NCBI GenBank assembly: GCA_018435055.1
Contig: JAHDOA010000015.1
Location: forward strand, 1 to 64,000
DNA length: 64,000 nucleotides
Reading direction: 5' to 3'
Origin: Pelotomaculum sp.
GTDB lineage: Bacteria; Bacillota; Desulfotomaculia; Desulfotomaculales; Pelotomaculaceae
Positions within the stretch are counted from its first letter, which is position 1. Each line of letters begins with the position of its first letter. The translations under genes were made by a program, and so were the position numbers. Below, in pieces: positions 19,161 through 54,009 of this stretch. The notes beneath the pieces were generated by a model. That model was given only the letters and a program-made list of their open reading frames with translations, did not search any database and was not told the origin of the DNA.

Positions 19161-19547
19161 TTATAGATAAGGAACACTTCCATTGTCTCCACCGTCATCA
19201 GTTCCATTAGTTTTATCTTTAAAATGCAAATTACAACGAACCATCCCGTTCGCATATTTTATTTCCCCATTAGTGGGACATATGCTACCCCCACATTTTT
19301 GTAGATAATCCTTAAATTCATAAGCTGTGTGCTCCTTATTCTCCATAAGTAAATGGCTATGATACATCCCTTCAAACTGAACACAATTAGCATTACATGT
19401 TTGCCTAATGGCTTTTTCTATATAACCTTTATATAAAAAAATTGTTCCTGAAAATATAATTACACCAATAACCATAACAACTGTAAGTTCAACTAAAGTA
19501 AAACCCTGGTCATGGGCTATTCTGCTTTTCTCCAATTTTAACCTCAT
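19161..19547 (-). CDS. Type IV prepilin-like protein
   Basis: The protein has the prepilin cleavage and assembly motif GFTLVELTVVMVIGVIIFSG: a short basic leader, glycine-phenylalanine cleavage site, glutamate at +5 and a hydrophobic helix. The remaining about 85 residues form a small globular domain with four cysteines. The frame can start at the ATG at 19547, which lacks a Shine-Dalgarno, or at a TTG at 19535, which follows GAGG. The second gives an 11-residue leader, typical of prepilins. No pilus assembly gene is nearby, so it must use machinery encoded elsewhere. A candidate riboswitch and hairpin lie upstream. Confidence 0.75.
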   Translation of the reverse strand: MRLKLEKSRIAHDQGFTLVELTVVMVIGVIIFSGTIFLYKGYIEKAIRQTCNANCVQFEGMYHSHLLMENKEHTAYEFKDYLQKCGGSICPTNGEIKYANGMVRCNLHFKDKTNGTDDGGDNGSVPYL

Positions 19548-19556
19548 GCAAAACAA

Positions 19557-19778: not shown

Positions 19779-20573
19779 TTATCTTGTAAATATTTGTTTT
19801 AAAAATTGCGAAATACCACGACCGGCGGGTTTTATATTCTTAATCTCGCCGGTTTTAATGCCCAGGCCCTGTATTGCCCGGTGCGGGTTTCCGGCTACCA
19901 GGTTTTGGGTTTCATCCGTACCTACCAGCCGCGAGGCTTCTTTTAACGCGTCCGTTAGGACAGGCGCCCTTCCGCCGCTGCTGTGCGCGTCGGAGGCGAT
20001 AAAGTGGACGCAGCCCTGCTTGAGAAAGGTCCTGGCGGTAGTTGCGGCGGCAGTTCCCATCAGCCCGGTCAGGCTGCCGCTGGTAACTTGCGCCAGGGCG
20101 CCGCGTCTAACCAGCTCGTGGAGGTGGCGCGGGCTCCGGGCAAAAGCGGCGTTGCGCTCCGGATGGGCGATGACCGGCGTCACGCCCTGCAACTGCAGTT
20201 CGTAGAACACCAGGTCCGTATGATCGGGCACTAAATCGGCGGGGAGTTCTACCAGCAGGTAGCGACCGGTATCGTTGATGGTCAGGAGTTCGCCCCGGCT
20301 CATCCGCTGGGGCAGATCGGACTCCAGGCGGTATTCCGCGCCGGGTAGGATATCCAGGGGTATGCTGTTGTCTGCAAAAGCCCTGCGGAGTTGCGCCGTC
20401 GCCTCCAGGATTGTTTCCCTGCTGTGGGGATACAGTCCTGTGATCACATGGGGCGTGGCTACTATCGCGCGGATGCCGTCAGCGGCGGCAAGCCGCCCCA
20501 TGGCCAGGGACTCCTGCAGGCTGCCGGCGCCGTCGTCGAGCTCCGGCAGGATATGGCTGTGTATATCAATCAT
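19779..20573 (-). CDS. CpsB/YwqE-type PHP-domain protein tyrosine phosphatase
   Basis: The 264-residue PHP protein begins MIDIHSHILPELDDGA and has all metal motifs of the CpsB group: ATPHVI, GAEYRLESDL, VIAHPERN and FIASDAHSS. CpsB enzymes dephosphorylate the tyrosine-rich tail of the BY-kinase that controls capsule polymerisation. No BY-kinase or Wzz-type gene is in the window; one may exist elsewhere or may have been lost. The gene sits at the edge of the polysaccharide cluster but has the high GC of the genome backbone. Confidence 0.85.
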   Translation of the reverse strand: MIDIHSHILPELDDGAGSLQESLAMGRLAAADGIRAIVATPHVITGLYPHSRETILEATAQLRRAFADNSIPLDILPGAEYRLESDLPQRMSRGELLTINDTGRYLLVELPADLVPDHTDLVFYELQLQGVTPVIAHPERNAAFARSPRHLHELVRRGALAQVTSGSLTGLMGTAAATTARTFLKQGCVHFIASDAHSSGGRAPVLTDALKEASRLVGTDETQNLVAGNPHRAIQGLGIKTGEIKNIKPAGRGISQFLKQIFTR

Positions 20574-20785: not shown

Positions 20786-21421
20786 ATGTTTGTACGCGAT
20801 TATATGGCGAGGGCGCCGATCTCTATCCCTGTGGATACCCCGGTTTTCAAAGCTCTGGCAATAATGAAAAACAATAAAATCAGACATTTGCCGGTTGTTT
20901 CGGACAAAGGCAAACTCCTGGGAATGGTTACAGAAAAAAACCTGTTCTATCTGGCGCCGTCGCCGGCAACATCCCTCAGTATTTTTGAGATAAATTCCCT
21001 GATGGCCGAAATCAAGGTGGCCGAAGCAATGAAGGAAATACCGCCGGTATCGCCCGACACCACCCTGGAGGAAGCCGCGCTGCTGATGAGGGAACAGAGG
21101 ACTAACGGCATCCCGGTGGTCGAAGGGGATACCCTGGTCGGGCTGATCACCGAAAGTGACATCTTTGAAGCGTTGGCCAAGTTATTCGGCTACGGCAAGC
21201 CGGGTATCAGGATGGTTGTCGAGGCCAAGGACAGTCTGGGACTAATCGCCGACATCACAAAGATTATTAAGGATTTTGACATTGTCATCAGGAGCATCGT
21301 CACGATTCCGAAAGAAGATTTCAAAACAGACGTTGTGCTCAGGCTCAGTATTACTGATCCGGCCCCCCTGGTTGAGGTTCTGGAGAAGAATGGGTTTACG
21401 GTGTCAAATATTTTGGGGTAA
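20786..21421 (+). CDS. CBS-pair and ACT domain protein (AcuB-like)
   Basis: The 211-residue protein has two CBS domains (about residues 1-60 and 72-130; IRHLPVVSDKGKLLGMVTE and TNGIPVVEGDTLVGLITESD) followed by an ACT-like domain (about 138-211; DSLGLIADITKIIKDFDI). The same arrangement is found in AcuB, which binds adenine nucleotides and affects acetoin or acetyl-CoA metabolism in Bacillus. No acetoin genes lie nearby, so the ligand and role are open. AAAGGAGTG precedes the ATG by about 7 bases. It is transcribed divergently from the CpsB-like gene across a 212-base gap. Confidence 0.8.
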   Translation: MFVRDYMARAPISIPVDTPVFKALAIMKNNKIRHLPVVSDKGKLLGMVTEKNLFYLAPSPATSLSIFEINSLMAEIKVAEAMKEIPPVSPDTTLEEAALLMREQRTNGIPVVEGDTLVGLITESDIFEALAKLFGYGKPGIRMVVEAKDSLGLIADITKIIKDFDIVIRSIVTIPKEDFKTDVVLRLSITDPAPLVEVLEKNGFTVSNILG

Positions 21422-21776: not shown

Positions 21777-22073
21777 CTAAATTCTTCTCAGGCGGTCGAT
21801 TTCTTCCTGGAGGGCTTCGATTCTTTCCAGCAGGTCCAGGATTATGGCTGCGCCGCTGAGGTTAACGCCCAGGCTGCGGCGCAGGCGCTGCAGTTTGGCC
21901 AGGCGCGCCGCGTGCCTGAGCCTGATATGGCCCTCTTTTATATCCAGGATGCCGTACTCGGCCAGCAGCTGCGCCATTTCCGGGTGGATTTCCAGGCTGC
22001 CCAGGTCAATCCAGGCATCGTCATCACCGGTGGATAGGACATGGCGGTATATTTGCAGATAATATTTTTCCAC
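21777..22073 (-). CDS. CbpM-like chaperone modulator
   Basis: The 98-residue protein has a MerR-like helical layout: WIDLGSLEIHPEMAQLLAEYG, then LRHAARLAKLQRLRRSLGVNL and a C-terminal coiled coil (LLERIEALQEEIDRLRR). This matches CbpM, which binds the J-domain of CbpA in Enterobacteria and controls its activity. It follows the dnaJ-like gene by four bases, as cbpM follows cbpA. The start codon and coupling are clear; the modulating function is inferred from family and position. Confidence 0.75.
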   Translation of the reverse strand: MEKYYLQIYRHVLSTGDDDAWIDLGSLEIHPEMAQLLAEYGILDIKEGHIRLRHAARLAKLQRLRRSLGVNLSGAAIILDLLERIEALQEEIDRLRRI

Positions 22074-22077
22074 CCGA

Positions 22078-23076
22078 TCACACCCCTTTCCTGAGCGAAG
22101 CCAGTTCCCGGTAGAGCTTCTCTTCTTCAGCCGATAGGCGTTCGGGGATATCTATTTTAACCACCACATACTCATCGCCCCGCCCTTTTTGATAGGGCAG
22201 GCCTTTGCCCCTCAGGCGCAGCCGTTTGCCGGCCCGTGCCCCCGGTGGTACTTTCATCAACACAGGCCCGTCGAGGGTGGGCACGGAAACCCGATCTCCC
22301 AGCACGGCCTGCTCCGGGCGCAGGACGACTTCTGTTTCCAGATCCTCGCCGCGGACCTTGAATACCTGGTGGGGCAGCAGTTTTACCTTGAGGTAAAGGT
22401 CGCCTCTGGTTCCGCCGCTTATTCCTTCTCCGCCCTGGCCTTTGAGCCGGATCCTGCTGCCGTCGCGTACACCCGGGGGGATTTTTACCGCCAGCGTCCT
22501 GGCGCCGGCGGTTTCACCGGCGCCGCCGCAACGCCGGCAGAAGGCGTTGTTCTCTATGCCGGTACCGCCGCATTCCCGGCATATTTCCCGGGTGGACAGC
22601 TGCAGCGATTTTTCCCCGCCGCGGTATGCTTCCTCCAGTGATAGTTCAAGTTCGCTTTCAATATCCTGCCCGCGCGCCGGACCGGCCCTGCGGGCAGTCC
22701 TGGTCGCGCGGCCGAATGGTGATCCCCCGCCAAACAGTGTTTCAAAAAAGTCGCTGAAGCCGCTGGCGCCTGCCCCGTCGCCGGTACTGGTATAGAAATG
22801 GAATCCCTCCATATCCGGCGGCGGCCGGAAATCCTGGCCGTCCCGCCAGTTTTGGCCTAACTGATCGTATTTGGCCCGCTTCTCCTTGTCACTCAAAACT
22901 TCGTATGCTTCGTTAATCTGCTTGATCTTTTCCTCGGCTGTTTCCTTGTCCTTGCCGGTGTGCAGATCGGGATGCCACTTGCGGGCTAATTTCCGGTAGG
23001 CCGTTTTGATCTCTTTTTCTGTTGCGCTGCGGCTTACGCCCAGGATCTCGTAATAATCGCGAAATGATACGCTCAT
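22078..23076 (-). CDS. DnaJ/CbpA-type co-chaperone with a half zinc finger
   Basis: The 332-residue J-protein has an N-terminal J-domain (residues 7-70, HPD at 35-37), a G/F-rich linker (about 98-122) and two C-terminal substrate-binding domains ([36 protein letters not shown]). Between them are only two CxxCxGxG motifs, at 166-173 and 180-187; classical DnaJ has four and CbpA has none. It is therefore intermediate and can hold at most one zinc site of this type. It stimulates DnaK ATPase through HPD. The gene lies three bases after dnaK and before cbpM. Confidence 0.85.
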
Positions 23077-23079
23077 TTG

Positions 23080-24972
23080 CTATTTTTCCTCAAATTCGGC
23101 GTCGACGACATCTTCACCGCCCTGTGGCGCGGCGCCGCCTCCGCCGGGCGCGCCGCCCGGTGTACCGCCGGCCTGCCCGTAAGCCGCTTGCGATAGTGAA
23201 TAGGCCGCCTGCTGCAGGTCGCTCTGCAGGGAGCGGATGCGGTCGACGGGCGCGTTTTCTTTCAAAGCGGCCCGCAGGTCGCCCAGCAGCTGCTCCGCGC
23301 GGGCTTTCTCGTGCACCGGTATTTTGTCCCCCAGATCCTTCAGCTGGCGGTCTACCTGGTAGGCCAGTGAGTCTGCCTCGTTGCGGGCTTCTATTTCTTC
23401 TTTTCTTTTTTTGTCTTCGGCCGCGTTTACAGCGGCATCGTTGATCATCCGGTCGATTTCCGATTTGTCCAGGCTGGTCGAACCGCTGATGGTAATGTTC
23501 TGCTCCTTGCCGGTACCTTTGTCCCTGGCGCCGACTTTTAAAATGCCGTTGGCGTCGATATCAAAGGTCACTTCAATTTGCGGTACGCCCCTGGGCGCCA
23601 TCGGGATGCCGTCCAGTTTAAACTGGCCCAGAGACCGGTTATCCCGCGCCATTTCACGCTCGCCCTGCAGGACGTTGATATCAACTGCAGGCTGGTTGTC
23701 GTCAGCTGTGCTGAAAACCTGGCTGCGCCGCACGGGAATAGTGGTATTGCGTTCAATTATTTTGGACATAATCCCGCCCAGTGTTTCCACGCCCAGCGAC
23801 AGGGGTGTAACGTCAAGCAGCAGCACGTCTTTTACTTCTCCCGCCAGCACGCCGCCCTGGATGGAGGCGCCGATGGCCACGACCTCGTCGGGGTTCACAC
23901 CCATGTGCGGGTCCTTGCCGCCGGTCAGCGAGCGCACCAGCTTTTGCACCGCCGGTATACGGGTGGAACCACCCACTAATATAACTTCGTCGATATCCTT
24001 TTCAGTCAGTTTGGCGTCAGCCAGGGCGGCTGTTACCGGCCCGCGGCAGCGTTCCACCAGATGGGCGGTAAGGTCGTCGAATTTGGCGCGGGTTAATTTC
24101 ATATCAAGGTGTTTGGGGCCGTTGGCGTCGGCCGTGATGAAGGGCAGGTTGATCGCGGTTTCCATAGTTGCGGAAAGCTCCATTTTAGCTTTTTCCGCTG
24201 CCTCGATCAGACGCTGCAGAGCCTGCTTGTCATTGCGCAGGTCAATGCCGTAATCCCTCTTAAACCCGTCGGCCAGCCAGTCGACCACCGCCTTGTCAAA
24301 ATTGTCGCCGCCCAGGTGGGTGTCGCCGTTTGTCGATTTCACCTCAAAAACTCCGTCCCCCACCTCCAGGATGGACACGTCGAATGTCCCGCCGCCGAGG
24401 TCAAAAACCATGATCGTCTCGTTCGCCTGTTTATCCAGGCCATAGGCCAGCGCCGCCGCCGTCGGCTCATTGATGATGCGCAGGACGTTCAGCCCGGCTA
24501 TCTTCCCGGCGTCTTTGGTGGCGCTGCGCTGGGAGTCATTGAAGTAAGCCGGCACCGTAATCACAGCGTCGGTGATTTTTTCACCCAGGTATTTGGAAGC
24601 GTCGTCCACCAGCTTGCGCATCACCAGGGCGGAGATTTCCTCCGGGGCCATATCTCTGCCGCGAATATCAAAACGGACGGCGTCGTTTGACCCGGATTTG
24701 ATTTTATATGGAACCAGTTTTCGCTCGTCTGCCACTTCGGAAAAGCGGCGACCGATAAAACGTTTTATAGAATAGAGAGTATTCTCCGGGTTTAACACGG
24801 ATTGGCGGCGGGCTACCTTGCCGGCCAGCCTTTCTCCGTCTTCTTTAAAGGCAACAACGGAAGGCGTGGTCCGGTCGCCTTCGCTGTTTACTATAACTGT
24901 TGGTTTTCCTCCTTCCATTACCGCTATTACTGAGTTTGTAGTGCCAAGGTCAATTCCTACAGTTTTTCCCAT
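23080..24972 (-). CDS. dnaK: Hsp70 chaperone DnaK
   Basis: The 630-residue protein is full length. The nucleotide-binding domain shows [67 protein letters not shown] and [14 protein letters not shown]; the substrate domain has [16 protein letters not shown] and the C-terminus ends [10 protein letters not shown]. It leads an operon dnaK-dnaJ-cbpM without hrcA or grpE, unlike the usual Firmicutes heat-shock operon. No CIRCE inverted repeat is visible in the 160-base leader, so control by HrcA is unlikely. The genome probably has another hrcA-grpE-dnaK-dnaJ locus, making this a paralogue; this is an inference. Confidence 0.95.
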
Positions 24973-27493: not shown

Positions 27494-27566
27494 CTTATAC
27501 TATTGCACTTTTCTTTACTACTCCCAGTCCGGCCCTTATACTTTTACACTTTTCATTACTACTCCC
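27494..27566. repeat. Two-copy direct repeat overlapping the permease stop
   Basis: A 32-base unit running CTTATACT...TTTACTACTCCC is present at 27494-27525 and 27535-27566, 41 bases apart, with four differences. The second copy contains the stop codon of the MacB-type permease (27559-27561), so the first copy is a duplicate of the gene's 3' end. Confidence 0.75.
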
Positions 27567-28740
27567 TGCGCAGCGCTTCGATGGGGTTCAACCGGGCCGC
27601 CTTATTGGCGGGCAGGATGCCGAAAACCACGCCAATGGCCGCGGAAAACACGAAGGCCAGCAGCGCCGTCCACCAGGAAACCAGGGGCGGCCACTTGGCG
27701 ATCCTGGCGATCAGGTAAGCCCCGCCGATGCCCAGGGCCGTGCCGATTAGCCCGCCCAGCAGGCATAAGACCACCGCCTCGATCAGGAACTGGACCAGGA
27801 TATCCCTGCGCCTGGCGCCCAGGGCCATGCGGATGCCAATTTCCCTGGTGCGCTCCGTCACTGAAACCAGCATGATGTTCATTACGCCGATACCGCCTAC
27901 AAAGAGCGAAATCCCGGCAATCGTGCCGATCACTATGGTCATGACGCCGGTTATCCTATTGGCTGTCTGCATCTCCTGTTCCATGCTCTGACCGGCGTAT
28001 TTGCCCGGGTCATGGTGGCGGCGTTCCAGCAATTTCACAGCCTGGCCCATAGCTTCATCGACTTTTTCCCTGGCGGAGGCGCTGCCTTCAATCATCCCAA
28101 TATGTTCACCGAACATTACCTGCCAGGCCTGGATAGGGATATATACACTGGGGTTTTCACTGAAACCCAGGGCTGAATCGCCTTTGGCAATTATACCCAC
28201 CACCAGAAAAGGGGTATTTTCCAGGGTGATTTTATTTCCCAACGCCTGTGATCTGCCGAACATCTGGACGGCCAGATCCTCGTCAAGCACCGCCACCCGG
28301 CGCTTGCCCGCGTCGTCTTCATCTGTAAAGAAACGGCCCTCTTTCATGTTTATTTTTCTAATATATGAATAATCAGACGAGACTCCTGTTATCTGAGAAT
28401 ACTTCTTGTCTTTTGTCCCCCTTACGTCCCCCATAGTCTGGCTGCTGGGGGAGAGGTGGGTAATATCCGGGATGCTATCCTTGATCACCGCTACATCATT
28501 GAGGTTAAACTCCCGGCCGGTGACCGGCTTGTCGCTGCGCCAGTTTATATAAATGGCAAATATATTGGTACCGATTTTCTCCAGCTCGGACATTAAAACC
28601 GCCCTGCCGCCCTGACCGATGGCTACCACCGCGATCACGGCGGCGATGCCGATAACAATACCCAGCGTGGTCAGGAACGAGCGCAGCTTGCTCACCATGA
28701 TCCCTTCCAGGGCTACTCTGATGCTCTCCAGCAGGTTCAA
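27559..28740 (-). CDS. MacB-type ABC transporter permease
   Basis: The 393-residue protein has the MacB/FtsX arrangement: one N-terminal helix (FLTTLGIVIGIAAVIAVVAI, residues 23-42), a large extracytoplasmic domain (about 50-270) and three C-terminal helices that include GGIGVMNIMLVSVTERTREI and PLVSWWTALLAFVFSAAIGV. This group exports lipoproteins, peptides or macrolides by a mechanotransmission mechanism. The start overlaps the ATPase stop by four bases. Adaptor, ATPase and permease together form a complete tripartite-type operon; in a monoderm the partner outer-membrane channel would not be needed. Confidence 0.88.
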   Translation of the reverse strand: MNLLESIRVALEGIMVSKLRSFLTTLGIVIGIAAVIAVVAIGQGGRAVLMSELEKIGTNIFAIYINWRSDKPVTGREFNLNDVAVIKDSIPDITHLSPSSQTMGDVRGTKDKKYSQITGVSSDYSYIRKINMKEGRFFTDEDDAGKRRVAVLDEDLAVQMFGRSQALGNKITLENTPFLVVGIIAKGDSALGFSENPSVYIPIQAWQVMFGEHIGMIEGSASAREKVDEAMGQAVKLLERRHHDPGKYAGQSMEQEMQTANRITGVMTIVIGTIAGISLFVGGIGVMNIMLVSVTERTREIGIRMALGARRRDILVQFLIEAVVLCLLGGLIGTALGIGGAYLIARIAKWPPLVSWWTALLAFVFSAAIGVVFGILPANKAARLNPIEALRRE

Positions 28741-29657
28741 CGCGCCACCCCCCTGCCTGCGGCGTTGTCGCCGGCCGGTTCTGCCTCTGCAGCGCTGTTG
28801 CCGGACGATCCTGCCTGTTCGGCGCGACTGCCCGCCGGTCCTGCCTCTGCAGTAATGCTGCCGGCCAGCCTGGACTGTTCGACACTGCTGCCCGCCGGTC
28901 CCGCCTCTGCAGCGCTGTTGCTTGCCGGTCCCGCCTGCTCGGCCAGGCCCGGCGCCTCATTTACCAGGGCGCGCAACGGGTCGGCCACAGGTTCGTCATC
29001 CAGCAGCCGCCCGTCCCGGAATTGAAGGATCCGTGAGGTGTGCAGGGCGATATCCCGCTCGTGTGTGACAATCACAATGGTAGCGCCGCTGCGGTTTAGC
29101 TCCTGGAAAATAGCCATGATTTCCTCCCCCGAGCGGGTGTCCAGGTTTCCTGTGGGCTCATCCGCCAGGATAATGGCGGGGTTGTTCACCAGCGCCCGTG
29201 CTATGGCCACCCTTTGCACCTGGCCGCCCGACAATTCGCTCGGCTTGTGATGCATCCGCTCCGCCAGCCCCACCCTCGCCAGCGCTTCCTCCGCCCGCCT
29301 GGCCCGTTCACGGGGAGCCACCCCGGCATAGATCATGGGCAGTTCGACATTGCGCACGGCGCTGATGCGGGGCAGCAGGTTAAAAGTCTGGAATACAAAA
29401 CCGATTTTTTGGTTACGGATTTTTGCCAGCGCGGCATTGCCTGCGCCGCTGATTTCCATGCCGTCCAGGTGGTAGGAACCGGCGGTGGGAATGTCCAGGC
29501 AGCCCAGCAAGTTTAAGAGGGTGGATTTGCCCGACCCGGAAGGGCCCATTATCGCTACGAACTCCCCCGGCCCAACGTTTATATTTACATCTGCCAGGGC
29601 GGTTACCTGGTGCGCGCCCGTCCGGTATACCTTGCACAGGTTTGTGACCCTGATCAT
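28737..29657 (-). CDS. MacB/LolD-type ABC transporter ATPase with a repeat tail
   Basis: Residues 1 to about 225 form a standard ATPase: Walker [10 protein letters not shown] at 38-46, Q-loop in [10 protein letters not shown], signature [15 protein letters not shown], Walker [13 protein letters not shown] and H-loop VTHE. LolD/MacB-type ATPases normally end there. This one carries about 70 more residues, rich in Ala, Gly, Ser and Glu and built of imperfect 20-residue repeats ([16 protein letters not shown]-like). The tail matches a 60-base DNA repeat. It overlaps the adaptor gene upstream and the permease downstream by four bases each. Confidence 0.9.
28757..28945. repeat. About 60-base tandem repeat within the ATPase gene
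   Basis: Roughly three imperfect copies of a 60-base unit (each containing CTGCCCGCCGGTCC-GCCTCTGCAG) encode the C-terminal tail. Each unit is itself two related 30-base halves. All copies keep the reading frame. Confidence 0.8.
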
Positions 29658-44939: not shown

Positions 44940-45306
44940 ATTAACCCCCCCTGAGTTTATTAGGAATAGGGACACATCCATATTTCCGGCAACTTGTTAT
45001 CAGCCATAAGAATGGGGACAAATCTTCGTTTCTGCAACATTATACCGTTGCATGATACCAGACAGCGGAACGGAGACACACCTCTGTTTAAGGCCTGGCT
45101 TTGGGGCTGAGGAATGTCCCCGGTTTAAGGTTCAGTAAATGTCCCCATTTTAGGTTCGAGGTATGTCCTTGATCGTCGTAATTGGTCATACCACCTGTAG
45201 GCGCGGCTTCAGCCGCACATCTTTGGCGAAGGATAAATTCCGCCTACAGCGGACATGATTCCTAAACCGTTAAAATTAGCCGTACAAGGATATGTCTCCT
45301 TGTTTC
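44940..45306. repeat. Repeat-filled gap between pyrD and pyrF
   Basis: One GGAGACACACCTC...GAGGAATGTCCCC hairpin occupies 45072-45121 and its preceding tag GTTGCATGATACCAGACAGCGGAAC matches copies at 53770 and 53887. A full three-way repeat lies at 45195-45249: outer CTGTAGGC/GCCTACAG, inner GCGGCTTCAGCCGC. No gene or promoter is evident. Confidence 0.85.
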
Positions 45307-53644: not shown

Positions 53645-54009
53645 CTTTCTGAAAAATATGTCCCGGATTGCCTGAAAACCGGGTGGGTGGCCTGAAAATT
53701 GTAGGTGCGGTTTTAACCGCACATCTTTTGGCGGGGGAAGCACCTCTGTTTCTGCGGCGTTGCATCGATCTGTGATACTCTGACTGAGGAATGGGGACAC
53801 ACCTCTGTTTTGGGATTGGCTTTGACGCCGAGGTATGTCCCCGATCGGGATTGGTTGGATCTTTTCTGCGAGCTTGTATTGTTTTGTGATGCTCTGACAG
53901 TGGAACGGGGACACACCTCTGTTTGGGGATTGGCTTTGTAGATGAGGAATGTCCCCGATTGGCGGGGCATATATTATAAAACCAATAATTTGCAAAGCAG
54001 GTAAGCATT
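53645..54009. repeat. Tandem 114-base repeat and hairpins
   Basis: After GTGCGGTT-TT-AACCGCAC (53704-53722) a 114-base unit is repeated about twice: TGATRCTCTGACWG...GGGGACACACCTCTGTTT-GGGATTGGCTTTG...GAGGWATGTCCCCGAT. The hairpin arms are 53793-53805 with 53830-53842, and 53907-53919 with 53944-53956. The minus-strand open frame across it (about 53486-53995) is read from the repeats and is not a gene. Confidence 0.88.

Follow-up and report, generated by a model that had tools for sequence, protein, structure and literature searches.

A conserved bacterial J-protein with half of the DnaJ finger, encoded between a second DnaK and a CbpM/DafA-like protein

The window analyzed here, a stretch of 64,000 nucleotides from Pelotomaculum sp., encodes a J-protein with two CxxCxGxG motifs, where DnaJ has four. 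This half-finger J-protein is a real, conserved and functional-looking variant that recurs, with the same spacing of the motifs, in numerous genomes, and on the minus strand its gene is the second of three that lie close together. We consider it probable that the protein is a CbpA-type co-chaperone for the DnaK encoded next to it (DnaK2), with one four-cysteine zinc-knuckle hairpin, and that it is held by a CbpM/DafA-like partner. The features on which this reading is based are the following.

23080..24972, minus strand: dnaK2, 630 aa, directly upstream of the J gene
22078..23076, minus strand: half-finger J-protein gene (J domain, G/F region, CTD1 with the two-motif hairpin, CTD2, C-terminal helix)
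22864..23058, minus strand: J domain, residues 7-71, HPD at 35-37 (Pfam)
22558..22581, minus strand: first CxxCxGxG motif, CRECGGTG, residues 166-173 (sequence and homolog alignment)
22516..22539, minus strand: second CxxCxGxG motif, CRRCGGAG, residues 180-187 (sequence and homolog alignment)
22144..22662, minus strand: DnaJ_C (PF01556), residues 139-311, interrupted by the half finger (Pfam)
21777..22073, minus strand: CbpM/DafA-like gene, 98 aa, GTG start (Pfam MerR_2; DafA and CbpM matches; model closest to CbpM 3ucs)

The half-finger J-protein and its gene

The J gene (22078-23076, minus strand) is an intact open reading frame with an ATG start that encodes 332 aa. The only cysteines of the protein, C166, C169, C180 and C183, all lie inside the two motifs, which are separated by 6 residues; this agrees with the preliminary description, which had noted motifs only at 166-173 and 180-187, 6 residues apart. 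The other two minus-strand frames contain no extra CxxCxGxG motif over 21901-23300 and, therefore, no frameshift conceals a further one. The Pfam model of the DnaJ central domain (PF00684) gives 15.2 bits, below the cut-off of 32.7, compared with 60.5 bits for the DnaJ of the same genome, which served as the control. The NCBIfam models TIGR02349 (DnaJ_bact; 337.5 vs a cut-off of 377.2 bits) and PRK10266 (253.9 vs 403 bits) likewise score below their cut-offs.

J domains are found at two places in the genome in all, namely in the window protein and in the four-motif DnaJ, which is a separate gene on contig C42 (locus L001), beside another dnaK. The two J-proteins share 39% identity across 368 alignment columns, and DnaK2 shares 57% identity, across 321 aligned residues, with the portion of the other DnaK that lies within this locus.

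Conservation of the two-motif finger among homologs

To place the protein among its homologs, we drew from 228 loci a set of 172 distinct J-proteins, all of which have a C-terminal domain. Excluded from this set were the hits above 90 bits that failed on the HPD or on length (L109, L126, L132, L197, L200), as well as hits of 55-90 bits that lacked the HPD or fell outside 270-450 aa. Two motifs are present in 78 of these proteins, four in 45, none in 44, one in three and three in two. Seventy proteins, the window protein counted, are at least 50% identical outside the finger; 64 of these contain two motifs, five none and one a single motif. Close homologs with four motifs, which the preliminary description had named as the sign of a sequencing or assembly deletion, are absent (0/70). 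The notion that the missing motifs reflect such a deletion is ruled out by the two-motif homologs, which occur in many independent genomes including the closest relatives, while the reading frame itself is intact.

All four cysteines and the four motif glycines (C166, C169, G171, G173, C180, C183, G185 and G187) are invariant in 58 of the 58 aligned half-finger rows; the two-motif pattern is therefore not due to chance, and the feature picked out in the preliminary description is a conserved one. Of the 78 two-motif proteins, 77 have a linker of 6 residues between the motifs and one has a linker of 7. A search of 100 related genomes with the window protein returned 40 full-length half-finger matches, the window's own counted, and 30 of these (loci L054-L083) have exactly two motifs in every case. 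Among the 20 loci L003-L022, two motifs are present in 18 and none in two (L019 and L021). The nearest relatives in the named genome collection come from the Desulfotomaculaceae MAG STF2_125 (best segment 91% identical) and Pelotomaculum propionicicum (84%), followed by members of Sporotomaculum, Desulfoscipio, Desulfotruncus and Desulfocucumis.

Spread across phyla

The breadth of the distribution was assessed by scanning four phylum samples with a DNA pattern for the CTD1 strand followed by a half finger. The reversed control pattern gave 0 hits in every listed genome; the pattern overlooks variants, and the counts below are lower bounds. Half-finger J-proteins are present in three of the four samples, nearly always with the 6-residue linker. 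In the phylum of the window, the pattern occurs in at least 34 of 398 genomes, and 29 of the 30 loci that were read encode two-motif J-proteins (four of the 34 hits came without a locus and are outside these 30). The phylum of genome G489, reached through a Tychonema locus, has at least 8 matching genomes among 117; complete half-finger J-proteins are encoded in six, and in G525 the gene is split over contig pieces. A Deltaproteobacteria MAG led to the phylum of G484, where at least 11 of 198 genomes match, with nine two-motif J-proteins. The Pseudomonadota sample (the phylum of G483, reached through Reyranella) yielded a single match to the pattern in 299 genomes, the four-motif protein L133, and thus no true half finger.

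Several pattern hits were set aside: L089 (phylum of the window), L124 (phylum of G489) and L144 (phylum of G484) are not J-proteins, and L133 and L142 have four motifs and hence are not half-finger proteins. The frame at L144:1377-1763 encodes 128 aa that contain six CxxCxGxG motifs but lack a J domain. The genome of L133 (G625:C2, about 106458-110465) contains several J-like frames in a row with CxxCxGxG motifs; these frames are very divergent and one is broken by stops. In a Gastranaerophilales J-protein (L119:1492-2553), the finger is further shortened to CPYCGG-NPKTF-CSHCAGSG, with one exact motif and five cysteines, and may be a decaying half finger.

Phylogeny and the direction of finger change

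All trees were built without the finger columns. The 172 proteins were thinned by identity to 111 rows for a quick tree and then to 95 for a more careful one, from which L028, L188_597, L133, L228_259 and L119 (long branches or odd composition) and 11 close rows were dropped; in the quick tree, the four-motif protein L133 falls inside the CbpA clade on a branch of length 2.79. In the 95-row tree, the window protein belongs to a CbpA clade of 52 rows (bootstrap 99, SH-aLRT 95). This clade comprises 35 two-motif rows, L176, and 16 fingerless rows including Rahnella CbpA, and contains no four-motif protein; L176 has four cysteines with one exact motif, so that 36 rows possess a four-cysteine finger. 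The deepest branches of the clade (L103 and the Tychonema-phylum group) are half-finger proteins. Parsimony rooted on DnaJ reconstructs two motifs at the base of the clade with each of four cost schemes, and does so in 196 of 200 bootstrap trees. The common ancestor of the window protein and Rahnella CbpA is assigned two motifs in 174 of 200 trees and zero in 7, with 19 ties. When Thermus DnaJ2 and Klebsiella CbpA are added, a single clade is again obtained (54 of 97 rows, support 79/82), and, of 200 bootstraps, 112 give two motifs as the sole optimum at its base, 85 give a tie and 3 give zero alone.

The topology tests (AU), for which the groups were named after the tree had been seen, rejected a single clade of all half-finger rows including L136-L141 (p about 7e-64); therefore, the half finger arose at least twice. 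L136-L141 form a second half-finger clade from the phylum of G484, with linkers such as RAGRKG; the finger region lies within about 1040-2060 of each locus, and no CbpM-like or DnaK neighbor is marked for the rows of this group in the tree. The tests also rejected a single clade of all fingerless rows (p 0.00014), a result driven by L019 and L021. These two proteins still sit behind a dnaK and, therefore, the finger is dispensable there; the loss from two motifs to none in L019 and L021 is firm.

For the deeper branches, encompassing enterobacterial CbpA and Thermus DnaJ2, stepwise loss from four motifs to two and then to none is favored, not proven. The alternative is that the CbpA ancestor was fingerless and that the half finger was regained by recombination with a dnaJ gene. 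This scenario would be compatible with the tests in which a single clade of the fingerless rows without L019 and L021 (p 0.188) and a single clade of the CbpA-clade half-finger rows (p 0.132) are not rejected, and with the ties between zero and two motifs at the base in 74 of 200 bootstraps once Thermus is added. We nevertheless consider regain unlikely, given that parsimony favors two motifs at the base on both trees and that the clade of all fingerless rows is rejected, albeit through L019 and L021. Moreover, a longer loop free of cysteines occupies the finger position in Klebsiella CbpA, Rahnella CbpA, L178, L179, L182 and L225, resembling, and possibly representing, a remnant of the finger; Thermus DnaJ2 has a short loop in this position. 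The median length of the G/F region is 49 residues in four-motif proteins, 61 in the main half-finger group and 69.5 in the fingerless members of the clade, so that the half-finger group is intermediate here as well, and G/F regions have been described as longer in CbpA than in class A (PMC12799103).

Returning to stepwise loss, we tentatively suggest, with somewhat less than even confidence, that the half finger is ancestral to the entire CbpM/DafA-associated CbpA lineage: the arm would have been cut to a one-zinc knuckle once the J-protein had come under a CbpM/DafA-type partner, enterobacterial CbpA and Thermus DnaJ2 would represent later, separate losses, and the L136-L141 group would have taken the same step independently, arriving at the same 6-residue linker. 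The preliminary description had proposed that the protein might represent an intermediate J-protein class, for which it had called for a phylogeny with a count of the motifs. The placement in the CbpA clade and the two-motif ancestor obtained by parsimony speak for an intermediate state, although the deep step is only favored, its direction being left unsettled by the topology tests that include Thermus DnaJ2. The word class fits less well, because the two-motif form includes the separate second clade, and truncated four-cysteine fingers have already been described in J-proteins of the endoplasmic reticulum (ER; PMC12799103).

Predicted structure of the half finger and the zinc question

The AlphaFold2 model of the J-protein, built from the 58-row alignment and free of metal, has a mean pLDDT of 83.6. 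Residues 161-190, with block means of 88, 91 and 92, are flanked by strands 154-165 and 188-199, so that in this model the motifs are confidently predicted to cap a hairpin at the place where DnaJ bears its arm. In structure comparisons, the model aligns with DnaJ 6jzb (Z 17.1, rmsd 3.5, 205 aligned residues), CbpA 3lz8 (Z 16.9, rmsd 3.1, 180 aligned) and Thermus DnaJ2 4j80 (Z 17.6, with an rmsd of 17.8 since the domains are turned). None of the PDB J-protein chains among the sequence and Foldseek matches is described with a half finger. From the motifs and the predicted hairpin, we infer that the four cysteines probably bind one zinc.

Which of the DnaJ motifs were retained is indicated differently by different lines of evidence. 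The multiple alignment puts the two motifs at the positions of DnaJ motifs I and IV, which favors descent from this pair. Motif profiles do not single out motif I, with only 8 of the 78 first motifs scoring best as such (without flanks). Descent from motifs III and IV is favored by the sub-threshold PF00684 match, which covers the III-IV half, and by the 6-residue linker, which has the III-IV length. The linker residues, in contrast, do not resemble those of a III-IV linker: they score -8.1 bits (main group), -4.7 (cyanobacterial) and -6.4 (L136-L141) under the III-IV model vs +9.9 for true III-IV linkers, and are nonetheless above most within-linker shuffles.

A rather improbable alternative to the zinc site is that the four cysteines are mainly a redox element, engaged in disulfides or thiol-disulfide exchange, as opposed to a permanent metal site. 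Two CxxC pairs are indeed present, but the invariance extends equally to the glycines of the motifs (58/58), which fits knuckle turns around a metal; redox sites that consist of CxxC alone are not known to need such glycines. Disulfides have been suggested to stabilize the short finger of ER J-proteins (PMC12799103), and DnaJ is a weak thiol reductase, an activity for which its Cys-rich domain is required (PMC4428491). However, the oxidoreductase activity of Salmonella DnaJ has been reported to rest on Zn2 and the CTD cysteines, not on Zn1: the Zn1-less form kept the activity and the Zn2 mutant lost it (PMC8262869). In DnaJ, site I has been assigned to substrate binding and site II to the interaction with DnaK (Linke 2003, cited in PMC4428491). 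By analogy with these reports on the two sites, a single proximal zinc site would be expected to support client binding more than thiol chemistry.

Gene neighborhood

Three bases separate the dnaK2 stop from the ATG of the J gene, and the CbpM/DafA-like gene begins 4 bases downstream of the latter. This arrangement, with dnaK2 upstream and the CbpM/DafA-like gene downstream, says the most about function and was absent from the preliminary description. Neighborhoods were compared across the set in loci of sufficient length, counting as a DnaK neighbor a gene within 700 bp upstream; the test for CbpM-like genes found three of three annotated plasmid CbpM controls, which were already among the hits of the initial profile. 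Among two-motif proteins of at least 55% identity, a CbpM-like gene comes next in 53 of 59 and a DnaK lies upstream in 49 of 60; below 55% identity, the respective neighbors are detected in 4 of 17 and 2 of 16. The corresponding counts are 7/16 and 5/16 for the fingerless members of the CbpA clade, 0/27 and 0/23 for the other fingerless J-proteins, and 2/45 and 27/38 for four-motif proteins.

The two four-motif J-proteins with an adjoining CbpM-like gene are encoded at L142:948-2045 and L192:1477-2676; it is possible that they are relatives of the state that preceded the shortening of the finger.

The small partner protein

In a search of the PDB with the single sequence of the 98-aa protein (E <= 1), Thermus DafA was the only match (8.6e-5). 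A profile of 48 homologs, from which annotated CbpM rows were excluded, matched both DafA (1.4e-9) and CbpM (2.4e-6); designed repeat proteins matched it as well, on one helix pair. The AlphaFold2 model (mean pLDDT 79.7), with a long helix at residues 72-97, is closest to CbpM 3ucs by structure alignment (Z 9.3, rmsd 2.7, 83 aligned residues); DafA scores Z 7.5, tied with GlnR (7.6), and Foldseek gave no match for the model at E <= 0.001.

CbpM binds the J domain of CbpA, where R26, R30 and V36 confer specificity (PMC4063869). The window J domain has R28, R32 and L38 in the corresponding positions. Leaving aside the L136-L141 group, where 2 of 6 proteins have this R-R-hydrophobic set, it occurs in 69 of 72 half-finger proteins, as well as in 13 of 16 fingerless clade members, in 2 of 28 other fingerless proteins and in 5 of 45 four-motif proteins. 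On the side of the partner, Glu62 of CbpM, which contacts the HPD of the J domain, has been reported to be essential for binding CbpA (PMC4063869). At the equivalent column, no more than 6 of 51 aligned homologs have an acidic residue and the 98-aa protein has Ser67, which counts against a simple equivalence of this protein and CbpM.

It seems unlikely that the 98-aa protein is instead an HspR-type repressor of the operon. HspR (NF047375) is its best NCBIfam match, at 25.7 bits, but the cut-off of that model is 105, the predicted structure with its long terminal helix is nearest to CbpM, and DafA is the only PDB match of the single sequence. HAIR and CIRCE are heat-shock operator sites; pattern searches allowing up to 3 mismatches found neither a HAIR-like nor a CIRCE site in the window, and the former result also argues against HspR. 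In favor of an HspR-type repressor, HspR is reported to be related to CbpM and to occur in some operons together with CbpA or DnaJ (PMC4063869). A partner of the CbpM/DafA type remains the preferred reading of the 98-aa protein. DafA assembles the DnaK3-DnaJ3-DafA3 complex in Thermus and has been termed a CbpM analog and a thermosensor (PMC3727329, PMC3125180).

Comparison with known systems

The window J-protein shares with enterobacterial CbpA, a class B protein, the J, G/F, CTD1 and CTD2 regions, membership in the same clade of the trees built without the finger, the R-R-hydrophobic contact set and a CbpM homolog encoded next door. It differs from CbpA, which has no CxxCxGxG motif, by its two motifs and by the presence of a DnaK gene in the same gene group, and its type of partner lacks a conserved acidic residue matching Glu62 of CbpM. 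CbpM has been described as conserved in gamma-proteobacteria and class B as fingerless (PMC8215388). Thermus DnaJ2 is the top PDB sequence match of the window J-protein (40-41% identity in the Foldseek rows), the small partner matches DafA of the DnaK3-DnaJ3-DafA3 complex, and in Thermus, too, the dnaK and J genes presumably lie close together, as they do in the window, where, unlike in Thermus, there is no grpE between them. In Thermus DnaJ2, the finger is wholly absent (PMC3727329). Class A DnaJ has the same J, G/F and CTD1/2 regions, and two of its four motifs share the insertion point of the half finger; the DnaJ arm, however, contains eight cysteines and two zincs vs the four cysteines of the half finger, PF00684 falls below its cut-off on the window protein, and the genome encodes a separate true DnaJ.

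Partial fingers are also found elsewhere. The ER J-proteins DNAJB11/ERdj3 and atDjA8 have a finger of about half length with four rather than eight cysteines (PMC12799103), but these are eukaryotic proteins of separate origin that are thought to use disulfides. A partial DnaJ-like finger with two CXXCXGXG repeats also occurs in HMO-2011-type phage DNA polymerases (PMC9038755), where it is part of the polymerase and not of a J-protein. Class A and class B are distinguished by the presence vs absence of the finger; the manner of its loss and the reasons for it have been presented as an open question in a source whose sections considered here make no mention of a bacterial half finger (PMC12799103). 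The literature searched, mostly outside subscription journals, contained no publication on a bacterial half-finger J-protein.

Other features of the window

A tandem repeat at 28770-28943 (30/60 bp, up to 5.6 copies) encodes the Ala/Gly-rich tail of the product of an ABC transporter ATPase gene (28737-29657), which lies beside a MacB_PCD/FtsX permease gene (27559-28740). A 114-bp tandem duplication at 53749-53959 and a separate short array at 45109-45168 share GAGGAATGTCCCCGAT in their consensus units and are perhaps pieces of a dispersed repeat. The gene at 20786-21421, for a CBS-CBS-ACT protein, is transcribed convergently to the dnaK2 gene group, to which it has no known link. At 19161-19556, adjoining a CpsB/CapC-type gene (19779-20573), lies the gene of a short protein whose sequence contains a prepilin-type N-methylation motif (PF07963).

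Proposed function and implications

Together, the gene neighborhood, the family relationships and the predicted hairpin point to the following probable mechanism. The J-protein would be dedicated to the DnaK2 encoded just upstream and would stimulate it through its J domain, while CTD1 and CTD2 would dimerize and probably bind clients. The shortened finger is predicted to consist of a beta-hairpin stem of CTD1 capped by two zinc knuckles, with the four cysteines presumably on one zinc. Such a short arm could stiffen CTD1 and add a small client-contact surface, the distal part of the DnaJ arm being absent. The CbpM/DafA homolog would bind the J domain and keep DnaK2 and the J-protein in a putative resting complex, from which they might be released by clients or heat, as with DafA in Thermus. 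In the CbpA lineage, the DnaJ finger would have been shortened from four motifs to two, with several fingerless members later losing all.

A widespread bacterial group of half-finger J-proteins with their own DnaK and a CbpM/DafA-type partner amounts to a set of natural half-way proteins, suited to asking how the effect of a single zinc knuckle differs from that of none or two. A count of finger or no finger misfiles them: a published filter retained sequences with at least two motifs as class A (eLife 2017, PMC5542770), whereas truncated fingers have been filed under class B by another rule (PMC12799103). The half-finger J-protein is a good test case for the loss of the finger in class B and, if the half finger is indeed ancestral to the CbpM/DafA-associated lineage, its present-day carriers would represent the missing intermediate that links the class A and class B J-proteins of bacteria.
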